A DNA stretch of 64,000 nt, taken from the NCBI GenBank assembly GCA_016793465.1, contig JAEUJW010000017.1, positions 1 to 64,000 on the forward strand, in the 5' to 3' direction. The notes under the pieces were generated by a model. That model searched no databases and had not been told where the DNA came from. It saw nothing but the letters and a program-made list of their open reading frames with translations. Both the position numbers and the translations under genes were made by a program. This document shows positions 8,361 through 52,003 of this stretch, piece after piece (the first letter of the stretch is position 1; each line of letters begins with the position of its first letter). The DNA is from Myxococcales bacterium (lineage in GTDB: Bacteria > Myxococcota > Polyangia > Nannocystales > Nannocystaceae).

Positions 8361-8366
8361 GATGTC

Positions 8367-8372
8367 ACGGTA
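8367..8372 (-). promoter_or_regulatory. -10-like TACCGT, leaderless spacing
   Basis: TACCGT preceded by TGa (extended -10) ends 6 nt before the GTG start of the gene at 7872-8360. Transcription would begin at or next to the start codon. Confidence 0.5.
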
Positions 8373-8492
8373 TCACGAGGCGAGCGGGGGTCGCGGCGCC
8401 GCGGCGGATGTTCGGGCGCGGTCGCGGCCGAACGGGGTTCGTGGGCGGCGAATGCGGCGAGCGGCAGGGTCGCGGTCGCGGTCGCGCCGCGG

Positions 8493-9179
8493 TCACGCGA
8501 TCCGCGTGCGCGGGCTCGGACCGCGTGCGGGCGGCGGGAGGCGTGGGATCGGTCCGTGCGGCCTCGTCGCGAAGGTAGCGAGCCAGGCGGGGTGGGCGGC
8601 GATGCGGGCGAGGGCGGCGGAGAGCAGCGAGCGGCCGGGCTCGAGGCGGTGCCAGGTCGAGGCGCCGCTGGGGTGGGGCAGGGCGATCACGTCGGCCTCG
8701 ACGCCGTGGACGGTGGTGCGGCGCGCGGCGCCGACGATGTCGACGAGCGGGCCCTTGTGCCCCAGGGTCTGCTCGATCGCCAGAGTGCCGACCGGGATGA
8801 TCAGTTGCGGGTGCAAGGTCTCGAGCTCGCCGGAGAGAAAGCGGCGGCAGCGGGCGATCTCGTCGCGGTCGGGGCGGCGGTCGCCGCCGCCGTTGGCCTT
8901 GCCGGGGAAGCAGCGGGCCACCGCGGTCATGTAGACGCCGGCGCGGAAGCTCGGCTCGTCGACGCCGGTGGCCTCCTCGAACCAGCGAAACAGGGTCTTG
9001 CCGGCGGTCCAGGCGAACGGGCGGCCGAGGTTGCCCTCGCGAGGGCCGGGGGCCTGGCCGACCAGCAGGATGTCGGTGACGATCGGCGGGCCGTGCACGG
9101 GCGGGCCGAACATCGACGGGCAGGCGCGGCAGGCCTCGAGCTCGGCGTGGAGGAGGGTGAGGCGGCGGCGGCGGTCCAT
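8493..9179 (-). CDS. Uracil-DNA glycosylase superfamily protein (family 4/5 type)
   Basis: This protein of 228 aa probably removes uracil from DNA in base-excision repair. Motif A is GQAPGPREGN (residues 41-50), close to the family 4 GEAPG signature but with Gln, and motif B is HPSGAS starting at His169. Cys17, Cys20, Cys90 and Cys111 have the spacing of the [4Fe-4S] ligands of thermophile-type and family 4 enzymes. In motif A the usual Glu is Gln42, so activity or substrate range may differ from UdgA. The proline/arginine-rich C-terminal tail after about residue 205 is not part of the fold. Confidence 0.85.
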   Translation of the reverse strand: MDRRRRLTLLHAELEACRACPSMFGPPVHGPPIVTDILLVGQAPGPREGNLGRPFAWTAGKTLFRWFEEATGVDEPSFRAGVYMTAVARCFPGKANGGGDRRPDRDEIARCRRFLSGELETLHPQLIIPVGTLAIEQTLGHKGPLVDIVGAARRTTVHGVEADVIALPHPSGASTWHRLEPGRSLLSAALARIAAHPAWLATFATRPHGPIPRLPPPARGPSPRTRIA

Positions 9180-9189
9180 CGCGGGGGCG

Positions 9190-9195
9190 AACGTA
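9190..9195 (-). promoter_or_regulatory. -10-like TACGTT
   Basis: TACGTT ends 10 nt before the ATG of the uracil-DNA glycosylase gene. The leader would be absent or only a few bases long. Confidence 0.4.
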
Positions 9196-9285
9196 GCAGA
9201 GCCGCGAAGGCGCGCCCGCGACGAGCGTGGTGATCGGCGGGTGTGGTGATTCGGCGGCGCGGGCGCCGGTGTGTCTTCGGCGCCG

Positions 9286-9984
9286 TCAACCCGCGAGCAC
9301 GACGACGCGGCTGGCGGGGTCGGCGGTGATCTCGAAGGTCTTGCAGCGCAGCGGGACCGACTGCCAGCGGGTGCGACTGTCGTCGGCGCTCTCGCCGCGG
9401 GTCTGCAGCTTCTCGAGGGCCGCCTTGAAGCGCGCGGGGTCGGGCTTGTCGCCGAGCTCGGCGCGGAGCTCGGCCTCCATGCGCTCCTGCTCGGCCTTCT
9501 CGGCGGCGGTGACGACCGGTCCGAGGGCGGCGCAGGCGGTGTAGGTGCCGGGCCTGGCGATCTCGCGGAAGAGGGCGGGGCGGGTGCTGTCCTCGCCGCC
9601 GAGCAGGAGGTTGTGCGGCGAGGCGCCGCCGTTGTCGAGGTCGGCGACGGTGGCCGGCGGCGGCGTGCGGGCGCCGGTGATGAGGTAGTACTGCACCTGC
9701 CTGGTGTCTCGCGGGGCGCTGGCGTCGACGAGCACGAGCTGGCCGCTGGCGAGGCGGTCGCCGAGGGTGCCGGCGGCGTAGGCGTCGGCGATGGCGCGCG
9801 ACTCGGCGAGCCGCGCCTGCATGGCCGCGACGCGGGCCTTCAGCTCGGCGGGGTCGGCTTTTTTGCTGGCGATGGGGTTGCGAGGCATGGGCTTGGCGGG
9901 GACGTCGGCGTCGTTGCGGGGTGTCGGCGCCGGCGCGGAGCAGGCGACGAGGGACACGAGGACGCAGAGCGGCGCGCGAGGCAT
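9286..9984 (-). CDS. Hypothetical lipoprotein, 232 aa
   Basis: The protein begins MPRAPLCVLVSLVAC, a short signal peptide with lipobox LVAC, so it should be anchored in a membrane facing the periplasm. A helical charged segment (AELKARVAAMQARLAESRAIADAY, about residues 45-70) precedes a compact domain with QVQYYLITGAR and a Glu/Lys-rich helix near 165-190. Four later cysteines include a pair near the end. No family is recognised. It starts directly after a TATCCT box at leaderless spacing and runs away from the GAF/histidine-kinase operon. Confidence 0.68.
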   Translation of the reverse strand: MPRAPLCVLVSLVACSAPAPTPRNDADVPAKPMPRNPIASKKADPAELKARVAAMQARLAESRAIADAYAAGTLGDRLASGQLVLVDASAPRDTRQVQYYLITGARTPPPATVADLDNGGASPHNLLLGGEDSTRPALFREIARPGTYTACAALGPVVTAAEKAEQERMEAELRAELGDKPDPARFKAALEKLQTRGESADDSRTRWQSVPLRCKTFEITADPASRVVVLAG

Positions 9985-51238: not shown

Positions 51239-51245
51239 CGTGCGG

Positions 51246-51277
51246 GCCGCGCGACCCGTTGTCGCAGGTCGCGCGGC
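51246..51277. terminator. 11-bp hairpin between regB and regA
   Basis: GCCGCGCGACC (51246-51256) pairs perfectly with GGTCGCGCGGC (51267-51277) around a 10-nt loop, 8 bp after the regB stop. It could attenuate read-through into regA or protect the regB transcript end. There is no U tract. Confidence 0.5.
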
Positions 51278-51383
51278 GCGTGGGCGGTGAAACGCGGACC
51301 AGGCGCAGGCGGCCGCGGGCGGCGAAACGCGGGCTTGCCGGGCGCCCCGGCATGGGGCACGGTTGCCGGCGGAGGAGCGCCGC

Positions 51384-51965
51384 ATGGCAACCTCGGACGA
51401 CAGTCGCGCGACGGTGTTGGTGGTGGACGACGACAGGGCGTTCTGTACGGCGCTGGCGGGGTCGCTGCGCCGGCGCGGATACTCGGTGGTGGTCGCCCAC
51501 AATTACGAGGACGGTCTGGCGGAGGCGGAGGCGTGGTCGCCCGACCGGGCGGTCGTCGACCTGCGCATGCCGGGCCGCAACGGGCTCGAGCTGGTGGCGG
51601 CGCTGCGGCGGGCCGACCCGCACGTGGCGATCGTGGTGCTGACGGGCTACGGCAGCATCGCCACCGCGATCGAGGCGATCAAGCTGGGGGCCGTGCACTA
51701 CCTGACCAAGCCGGCCGAGCCCGACGACATCTGCGCGGCGTTCGGACGGACCGAGCCGGTCATGCTCGAGATGCCCGAGGCGCACGCGGCCAAGCCGCTC
51801 GGCGAGCTCGAGTGGGAGCACCTGCAGCAGGTGCTGACCGACTGCCGCGGGAACATCTCGGAGGCGGCGCGCCGCCTGGGGATGCACCGCCGCAGCCTGC
51901 AGCGCAAGCTGGCCCGCGGGCGCCCGGGGCTGCCGGGCGGGCCCGAGGAGCCGCCGCCGGCGTGA
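51384..51965 (+). CDS. regA: RegA/PrrA/ActR-family response regulator
   Basis: This two-domain regulator of 193 aa has a receiver with acidic pocket Asp15-Asp17, phospho-acceptor Asp59 in VVDLRMPG, Thr87 and Lys109. A short linker leads to a Fis-type helix-turn-helix, NISEAARRLGMHRRSLQRKL, which is diagnostic of the RegA family. In proteobacteria RegBA controls respiratory and redox genes. The ATG at 51384 has GGAGGAG upstream. The protein is slightly longer than usual owing to a Gly/Pro tail. Confidence 0.93.
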   Translation: MATSDDSRATVLVVDDDRAFCTALAGSLRRRGYSVVVAHNYEDGLAEAEAWSPDRAVVDLRMPGRNGLELVAALRRADPHVAIVVLTGYGSIATAIEAIKLGAVHYLTKPAEPDDICAAFGRTEPVMLEMPEAHAAKPLGELEWEHLQQVLTDCRGNISEAARRLGMHRRSLQRKLARGRPGLPGGPEEPPPA

Positions 51966-51990
51966 CGCCCTGCCGGGGTTGAAGTTGCGG

Positions 51991-51996
51991 TAATGT
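51991..51996 (+). promoter_or_regulatory. -10-like TAATGT, leaderless spacing
   Basis: TAATGT ends 7 nt before the ATG of thpR, head of the thpR-permease operon. Confidence 0.5.
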
Positions 51997-52003
51997 CGGC
52001 GGG

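Follow-up and report, generated by a model that had tools for sequence, protein, structure and literature searches.

The DNA considered here is a stretch of 64,000 nucleotides (the window) from a Myxococcales bacterium of the family Nannocystaceae (assembly GCA_016793465.1, contig JAEUJW010000017.1, positions 1 to 64,000), in which a TANNNT hexamer stands a few nucleotides before the start codon of many genes. From sequence evidence in the window and its relatives, a substantial minority of transcription units in this lineage very probably give rise to leaderless or nearly leaderless mRNAs, with leaders of 0 to about 5 nt. The best reading places this share at about 20% of the genes heading transcription units (heads), and perhaps at 30% when degenerate boxes are included. 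The window has a GC content of 73.6%, and a 1,745-residue piece of its largest protein is 78–83% identical (best segments) to Nannocystis proteins compared with ~49–67% for other Myxococcota; the window is therefore assigned to a Nannocystis-like myxobacterium, and the genome-wide tests were made in relatives of the window organism.

A sequence-only reading of the window had listed fourteen gene starts at which TANNNT ends 6–10 nt before the start codon, and a direct check of the sequence found both the hexamer and the spacing at 14 of 14. The chance control used the other ATG and GTG codons scored in the window, in any frame and on both strands, excluding the 18 listed starts (the fourteen and four variants) and a further start at 42116. 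Only 3 of these 3,128 codons had TANNNT at 6–10 nt, one of them being 36508, an alternative start of the gene at 36568. Among 52 window genes identified by a coding-score caller, the probability of at least 14 such genes is 8e-16 if the rate is the 0.0115 expected from composition and 2e-7 if it is set generously at 0.05. Given the earlier starts, the strict pattern heads 15 of the 52 genes, 42116 included, and internal ATG/GTG codons in the window carry the hexamer at spacing 5–9 at a rate of 0.000 (n = 809). The observation of TANNNT boxes at gene starts is real and is confirmed.

The Nannocystis set comprised 1.25 Mb drawn from N. poenicansa (forty 20-kb stretches plus a single locus) and N. 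exedens (20 stretches plus a single locus). Genes in the relatives were called by a coding score blind to promoters, and those shorter than 90 codons, weakly scored, truncated or at the end of a stretch were dropped. A gene was counted as a head if its upstream neighbor was divergent or lay more than 40 nt away on the same strand. Comparison samples were taken from Sorangium (424 kb), Deinococcus deserti plasmid 1 (250 kb; the positive control, from a known leaderless species) and Pseudomonas (340 kb sampled at intervals from two genomes).

Enrichment of TANNNT at this spacing, which the sequence-only reading had proposed to seek genome-wide, was strongly evident in these close relatives. The hexamer occurred at spacing 5–9 in 111 of 613 Nannocystis heads where ~11 were expected, with 4, 44, 16, 29 and 18 heads at spacings of 5, 6, 7, 8 and 9, respectively, compared with ~2 per position at 15–44. 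Relative to its own rate at spacings (d) of 15–44, TANNNT was 7–19 times enriched at each of d 6–9 and ~3–5 times at d 10–12, and was near background from d 13. Widening the range to spacing 4–13 gave 147 heads against 23 expected, an excess in 20% of the 613. Internal in-frame ATG/GTG codons of the two Nannocystis species had hexamer rates of only 0.002 (n = 7,215) and 0.001 (n = 3,839). Elsewhere, the pattern at spacing 5–9 was found at 15 of 192 heads in Sorangium, 9 of 65 in D. deserti plasmid 1 and 0 of 193 in Pseudomonas. The Pseudomonas sample was used in place of seventeen gammaproteobacterial loci around one orthologous gene, where a fraction of 0.21 of 38 divergent heads had the hexamer at d 5–9 (0.04 expected), along with 0.04 of 51 far heads and 0 of 29 nearer heads; the excess at divergent heads probably reflects one upstream region counted repeatedly. 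A 50-kb stretch of E. coli yielded 22 usable genes and 2 of 17 heads at d 5–9 (1–2 expected), too few to be of use.

The same spacing preference appears without any gene calls. Counting TANNNT-N(d)-ATG on both strands of the 1.25 Mb gave 58, 52, 51 and 46 occurrences at d 6, 7, 8 and 9, compared with ~20 at other spacings. A called start lay in the same frame as the ATG and no more than 150 nt away in 122 of 205 cases at d 6–9 versus 74 of 336 at d 15–30. A strict coding test was passed by 42 of 205 such ATGs at d 6–9 (37 with non-coding sequence upstream) and by 23 of 214 at ten other spacings (16 with non-coding sequence upstream); its threshold is harsh, because only 52% of 610 called heads and 45% of 126 TANNNT heads passed it. 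For whole genomes, d 7 was compared with d 16, which has the same codon phase. Counts were 616 v 208 in N. poenicansa, 517 v 130 in N. exedens, 530 v 143 in N. pusilla, 503 v 183 in N. bainbridge and 456 v 141 in Plesiocystis, ratios of 2.75–3.98, as against 0.98–1.07 in four gammaproteobacteria (447 v 420, 278 v 261, 2431 v 2433 and 1753 v 1781). Sorangium So ce26 (479 v 283) and two Myxococcota metagenome-assembled genomes (881 v 703 and 555 v 435) were also compared. In a survey of 140 genomes from the phylum of N. poenicansa (150 had been asked for), z exceeded 4 in 32 and 3 in 46, lay within 2 of zero in 70 and fell below -2 in none, and N. poenicansa ranked second of the 140 for TANNNT excess. 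The excess is clearest where the background is low, presumably at high GC, and signals in A+T-rich genomes may therefore be hidden.

The hexamer behaves as a sigma-70-type -10 box, as judged from its flanking elements, the depletion of Shine-Dalgarno (SD) sequences beside it, and its conserved T, A and T around a drifting middle. Applied to the sequences upstream of the 613 Nannocystis heads, an unseeded expectation-maximization search converged on T(0.61) A(0.90) t n n T(0.82), mostly at d 6–9, with a log-likelihood of 270 compared with 33 and 31 for two shuffled sets; the mixing weight of 0.50 was not used as an estimate, as one shuffled set also gave 0.50. TG was found one base upstream of the hexamer (extended TGn) in 30 of 128 matches, against a mean of 5.9 at other offsets, and TTG started 22–24 nt upstream in 24 of 128, against ~1 per position elsewhere, a position that fits a -35 box with a 16–18 bp spacer. 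SD-like sites preceded 12% of the 128 hexamer heads and 28% of the 485 other heads, and a count made without gene calls gave 28 of 207 ATGs with TANNNT at d 6–9 versus 55 of 213 at d 15–24. Within the window, the claim that most of the listed starts lack an SD sequence held, as 11 of the 14 have no match of 4 nt or longer; at 8360, 37808 and 48141 a 4-nt match falls at or near the hexamer, as judged by eye. The companion claim, that genes inside operons have ordinary ribosome-binding sites, agrees with the relatives, where SD-like sites precede 53% of operon-type genes versus 13–26% of the head classes, and does not hold, by the measure used here, in the window, where they precede 7% of 14 operon-type genes and 22–31% of the two larger head classes.

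Ribosomal RNA was sought in genome records with a view to the anti-SD sequence. A small-subunit rRNA (SSU) model matched in 1 of 8 genomes, the 16S tail GGATCACCTCCTT in 2 of 7 and the 16S pattern AAGTCGTAACAAGGTA, with at most one mismatch, in 1 of 7, and rRNA seems to be missing from these records, so that they say nothing about the anti-SD sequence. In one Sorangium genome (G006) the tail GGATCACCTCCTT occurs twice, at C1:8227675 and C1:8227729, 54 bases apart, and neither the SSU model nor the second pattern, AAGTCGTAACAAGGTA, found anything in that record.

Conservation was followed in five Nannocystis genomes, each represented by ~165 kb of approximately syntenic sequence. Twenty-five of 96 N. 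poenicansa heads, and none of 13 operon-type genes, had the hexamer at spacing 5–11, and 20 of the 25 had at least one ortholog aligned from its start. Of 67 ortholog pairs, 58 retained TANNNT with its spacing shifted by at most 2 nt (51 with no shift at all), and for 16 of the 20 heads all orthologs retained it; the expected retention is 26% if T, A and T each changed independently, at the rate seen for other upstream A/T letters (identity 0.64). The middle letters drift, as in TAAGGT, TACCTT and TACTGT at one gene. None of 62 N. poenicansa heads lacking the hexamer had it in any ortholog. The control at spacing 15–45 offered only 4 heads, with 9 of 13 pairs kept, and is too small to weigh. 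The start codon was common to orthologs in 98% of 90 comparisons at TANNNT heads versus 78% of 280 at other heads, and conservation at TANNNT heads followed codon periodicity from codon 2 on (0.87, 0.92 and 0.78 for the three positions). The signal extends to the window at the gene starting at 52004, which we take to encode a 2'-5' RNA ligase (ThpR)-like protein: TAATGT-N7-ATG in the window corresponds to TATAGT-N6-GTG in four intact Nannocystis orthologs, whose proteins are 61% identical to that of the window. A further copy, in Nannocystis sp. RBIL2, keeps an intact TATAGT and has a reading frame broken near its start (a second match covers residues 1–26, with a TGA inside), which points either to an error in the sequence or to decay of the gene.

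In -10 boxes, the bases at the second and sixth positions are known to carry weight, and the variants found at Nannocystis heads without TANNNT agree with this. At d 6–10, CANNNT (43 v 19), TANNNA (14 v 4.4), TANNNC (22 v 9) and TANNNG (24 v 7) were enriched 2.3–3.4 times and TGNNNT (25 v 18, 1.4 times) and TTNNNT (17 v 11, 1.5 times) slightly, and GANNNT (28 v 25), AANNNT (11 v 10) and TCNNNT showed no enrichment (1.1–1.3 times). Among narrower classes, CATNNT (17 v 6.4, with CATANT itself seen once) and TAGAN[ACG] at d 6–10 (7 v 1.1) were enriched, and CATGNT, the form before the window gene at 3127, was not (2 v 1.8). The sequence-only reading had admitted four variants, and these are present as described, with CATGCT at 3127, CATAGT at 35556 and 49931, and TAGACA at 27529; the enrichment makes the CATNNT class and TAGACA plausible. 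Adding the one-letter variants raises the share to roughly 30% of heads, a sum of possibly overlapping excesses and not a fitted value.

TGNNNT and CATNNT also seemed enriched in the annotation-free counts, peaking at d 7 and d 9. Palindromes are in excess at these peaks: full pairing of the outer five letters was seen in 58 of 438 and 64 of 152 matches, but in only 1 of 317 and 8 of 66 at the position one base beyond, and a dispersed palindrome thereby explains at least part of the peaks. The palindrome, TGTCC-N4-GGACA, has 192 sites in the 1.25 Mb of the two Nannocystis genomes and looks like a hairpin of the genus resembling repetitive extragenic palindromic elements. The distance between its arms is exactly 4 in 189 of the 192 (3 to 6 were allowed), the loop is variable, and only 68 sites lie inside called genes, though called genes cover 78% of the sequence. 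Examples occur at Nannocystis loci L156 (near 11413) and L089 (near 10289), at other Nannocystis loci, and in the window at 26935 and 26983; the Sorangium (0.42 Mb) and Pseudomonas (0.34 Mb) samples had none.

The leaderless reading first put forward for the window is supported by the enrichment in relatives, the extended TGn, TTG at -35 distance, the depletion of SD sequences and the conservation. A housekeeping promoter of the sigma-70 type would place its -10 box TANNNT, often preceded by TGn, mostly 6–9 nt before the start codon. The usual distance from a -10 box to +1 is 6–8 nt, which would put the transcription start on the start codon or a few nt ahead. The first transcribed base would then be the A or G of the start codon itself or a base up to ~5 nt upstream, and ribosomes would engage a start codon at the very 5' end without SD pairing, as with known leaderless mRNAs. 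In the relatives, SD-like sites are commoner at genes inside operons.

Several other explanations predict hexamers before start codons. A real -10 box could direct transcription to a point 1–8 nt ahead of the start codon, so that the mRNA would have a short 5' untranslated region and no SD sequence. Start-site choice at -10 boxes does vary by a few nt, and spacings of 10, 11 and 12 are above background (11, 9 and 7 of 613 heads vs ~2); the bulk of the hexamers nevertheless lies at 6–9, which puts the start codon at or close to the usual +1, and short leaders as the general explanation are possible, though unlikely. If instead the start codons were misassigned, TANNNT would be the ordinary promoter of a leadered mRNA translated further downstream from an SD sequence. 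Starts were called by coding score only, 5 of the 14 listed window starts lie upstream of the caller's choice, and one gene has two candidates (36508 and 36568). Misassignment would not, however, yield a tight spacing to a single codon, and the start codon shared by 98% of ortholog comparisons, the codon-type conservation from codon 2 and the scarcity of SD-like sites leave this a very improbable account.

A hexamer acting as a translation signal or a regulator-binding site, rather than as a promoter, would also sit close to start codons, and A+T-rich bases before starts in other phyla may, according to PMC5397173, reflect S1 binding or promoters. The T, A and T at -10 positions, the TGn and the TTG at a 16–18 bp spacer are instead the anatomy of sigma-70 promoters, and there is little to recommend a non-promoter signal. 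Nor does composition suffice. DNA between genes tends to have a higher A+T content than coding DNA, and a rise in A+T before genes of a 74% GC genome might produce such hexamers by chance; the peak is, however, confined to d 6–12, GANNNT and AANNNT are not enriched there, the pattern is absent from Pseudomonas heads, and it is conserved between species with a changing middle. These controls refute a chance or compositional artefact, which keeps a negligible probability.

Several results weigh against leaderless initiation as the general explanation of the hexamers. Ten of 145 operon-type Nannocystis genes (5/90 and 5/55) carry the hexamer, some of which may have their own promoters. With the blind caller's starts alone, the hexamer at spacing 5–9 precedes 9 of 49 window genes, and these divide into 4 of 35 heads and 5 of 14 operon-type genes. 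In five small Nannocystis loci surrounding a single gene, the hexamer stood at spacing 5–9 before just 2 of 48 heads. The count at d 7 is low in the gene-called Nannocystis heads (16, between 44 and 29), whereas the annotation-free counts are nearly flat from d 6 to d 9; in-frame TAA or TAG was rejected as the cause of the dip (15/44, 7/16 and 10/29 at d 6, 7 and 8). Annotation-free counts at d 6–9 did not rise clearly above background in the 250 kb of D. deserti (31, 27, 27 and 20 vs ~24) and did so only weakly in Sorangium (14, 11, 13 and 10 vs ~9), from which the method appears underpowered in small or less GC-rich samples. At individual genes, a Plesiocystis relative of the ThpR-like gene has no TANNNT, and for the UDG superfamily gene at 9179 the hexamer is missing in the 50 nt before the start of 5 of 5 Nannocystis orthologs, which have CAGACT or CACACT further upstream.

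In 2011, myxobacteria were classed in the delta-proteobacteria. Zheng et al. 2011 (PMC3160421) report in their main text signals of leaderless genes in 86 of 89 Actinobacteria, 5 of 5 Deinococcus-Thermus and 8 of 33 delta-proteobacterial genomes, with TAnnnT given for high-GC groups, about 20% of genes in Actinobacteria and a delta-proteobacterial mean of 15.8% (5.7–20.6). These predicted delta-proteobacterial leaderless genes are of the same kind as the Nannocystis signal, and relatives are probably among the eight genomes, which the main text does not name under the terms myxococc, Sorangium or Haliangium. GeneMarkS-2 predictions of leaderless transcription in 21.6% of bacterial species are cited in PMC9581028. 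With such earlier predictions, leaderless genes in a myxobacterium are not unexpected, and Nannocystis is a new instance of a known phenomenon, strong for a Gram-negative lineage, to which evidence of conservation is added. A search of mainly open-access literature found no paper on leaderless expression in Nannocystis or Myxococcota among the matches listed, as judged by titles and the starts of abstracts.

The closest counterparts lie in other phyla. Actinobacteria such as Mycobacterium tuberculosis (PMC3898074) share a TANNNT -10 box set so that transcription starts at the start codon, the lack of an SD sequence and high GC; they belong to another phylum than this Gram-negative myxobacterium, in which the site of transcription start is predicted from sequence. 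The "-10 region adjacent to ORF" promoters of Deinococcus-Thermus (PMC12340547) have the same geometry, and the fraction in D. deserti plasmid 1 from the same gene-called pipeline is similar to that of Nannocystis (9/65 vs 111/613 heads); this group too belongs to another phylum, and its sample was small, with an annotation-free count lacking a clear peak. On balance, with slightly better than even confidence, the Nannocystaceae may form a further stronghold of leaderless expression beside the Actinobacteria and Deinococcus-Thermus, as may, less markedly, other Myxococcota of high GC; in these Gram-negative predators a fifth to a third of transcription units would require initiation at a 5'-terminal codon independently of SD sequences. 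If so, start annotation, promoter prediction and expression design in Nannocystis and its kin should seek a -10 box at the start codon and not an SD sequence alone, and the genus would offer a setting outside actinobacteria and Deinococcus in which to ask what the translation of many leaderless mRNAs requires.

The hexamers of the window lie on both strands. On the minus strand these are TACCGT with an extended TGa (8367..8372, 6 nt before GTG 8360); TACGTT with TGc (9190..9195, 10 nt before ATG 9179 of the UDG superfamily gene), the weakest of the set; TATCCT (9992..9997, 7 nt before ATG 9984); TACAGT (14408..14413, 8 nt before ATG 14399 of a Polyketide_cyc2 family gene); TAGTCT with TGg (17740..17745, 7 nt before ATG 17732 of a protein kinase gene); TAGACT (22116..22121, 7 nt before GTG 22108); TACACT (23300..23305, 6 nt before ATG 23293, a start poorly backed by coding score); and TATCGT (46707..46712, 6 nt before ATG 46700). 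On the plus strand they are TACCGT (23746..23751, 10 nt before ATG 23762), TAGGCT with TGa (27657..27662, 7 nt before ATG 27670), TACGAT (36555..36560, 7 nt before ATG 36568), TAGGAT (37796..37801, 6 nt before ATG 37808), TATGGT with TGg (48129..48134, 6 nt before ATG 48141), which is ambiguous as GGGAGG stands just upstream, and TAATGT (51991..51996, 7 nt before ATG 52004 of the ThpR-like gene). Two boxes were absent from the earlier list, TAGCCT with TGc on the minus strand (42126..42131, 9 nt before ATG 42116) and TAGGAT with TGn on the plus strand (36495..36500, 7 nt before the alternative in-frame ATG 36508). The variants are TAGACA with TGa (27536..27541, minus strand, 6 nt before ATG 27529), CATAGT (35567..35572, minus strand, 10 nt before ATG 35556), CATAGT (49915..49920, plus strand, 10 nt before ATG 49931) and CATGCT (3114..3119, plus strand, 7 nt before ATG 3127), the last being weak and containing another in-frame ATG (3115).

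The description of the listed genes as heads of transcription units is presumptive for four, as 14399, 17732, 22108 and 52004 lie only 27–38 nt behind a gene on the same strand. Five of the fourteen starts (23293, 23762, 36568, 37808 and 48141) lie upstream of, and in frame with, the start preferred by the coding-score caller; as printed, 37808 scores 10.6 units under the coding-score optimum and 23293 more than 12 under. Within 36495–36660, the two in-frame ATG candidates at 36508 and 36568 each follow a TANNNT by 7 nt, and possibly two promoters there lead to two protein forms. The gene at 20951–22108 had no ortholog match in 7 genomes, and a viral scan with one window protein found no relative. 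Elsewhere in the window, three adjacent tRNA-Lys(CTT) genes occupy 160–442 on the minus strand, and the protein predicted from 25217–27529 contains, within its first 400 residues, a repetitive stretch of PVPSDSPPPAADPALR-type units.

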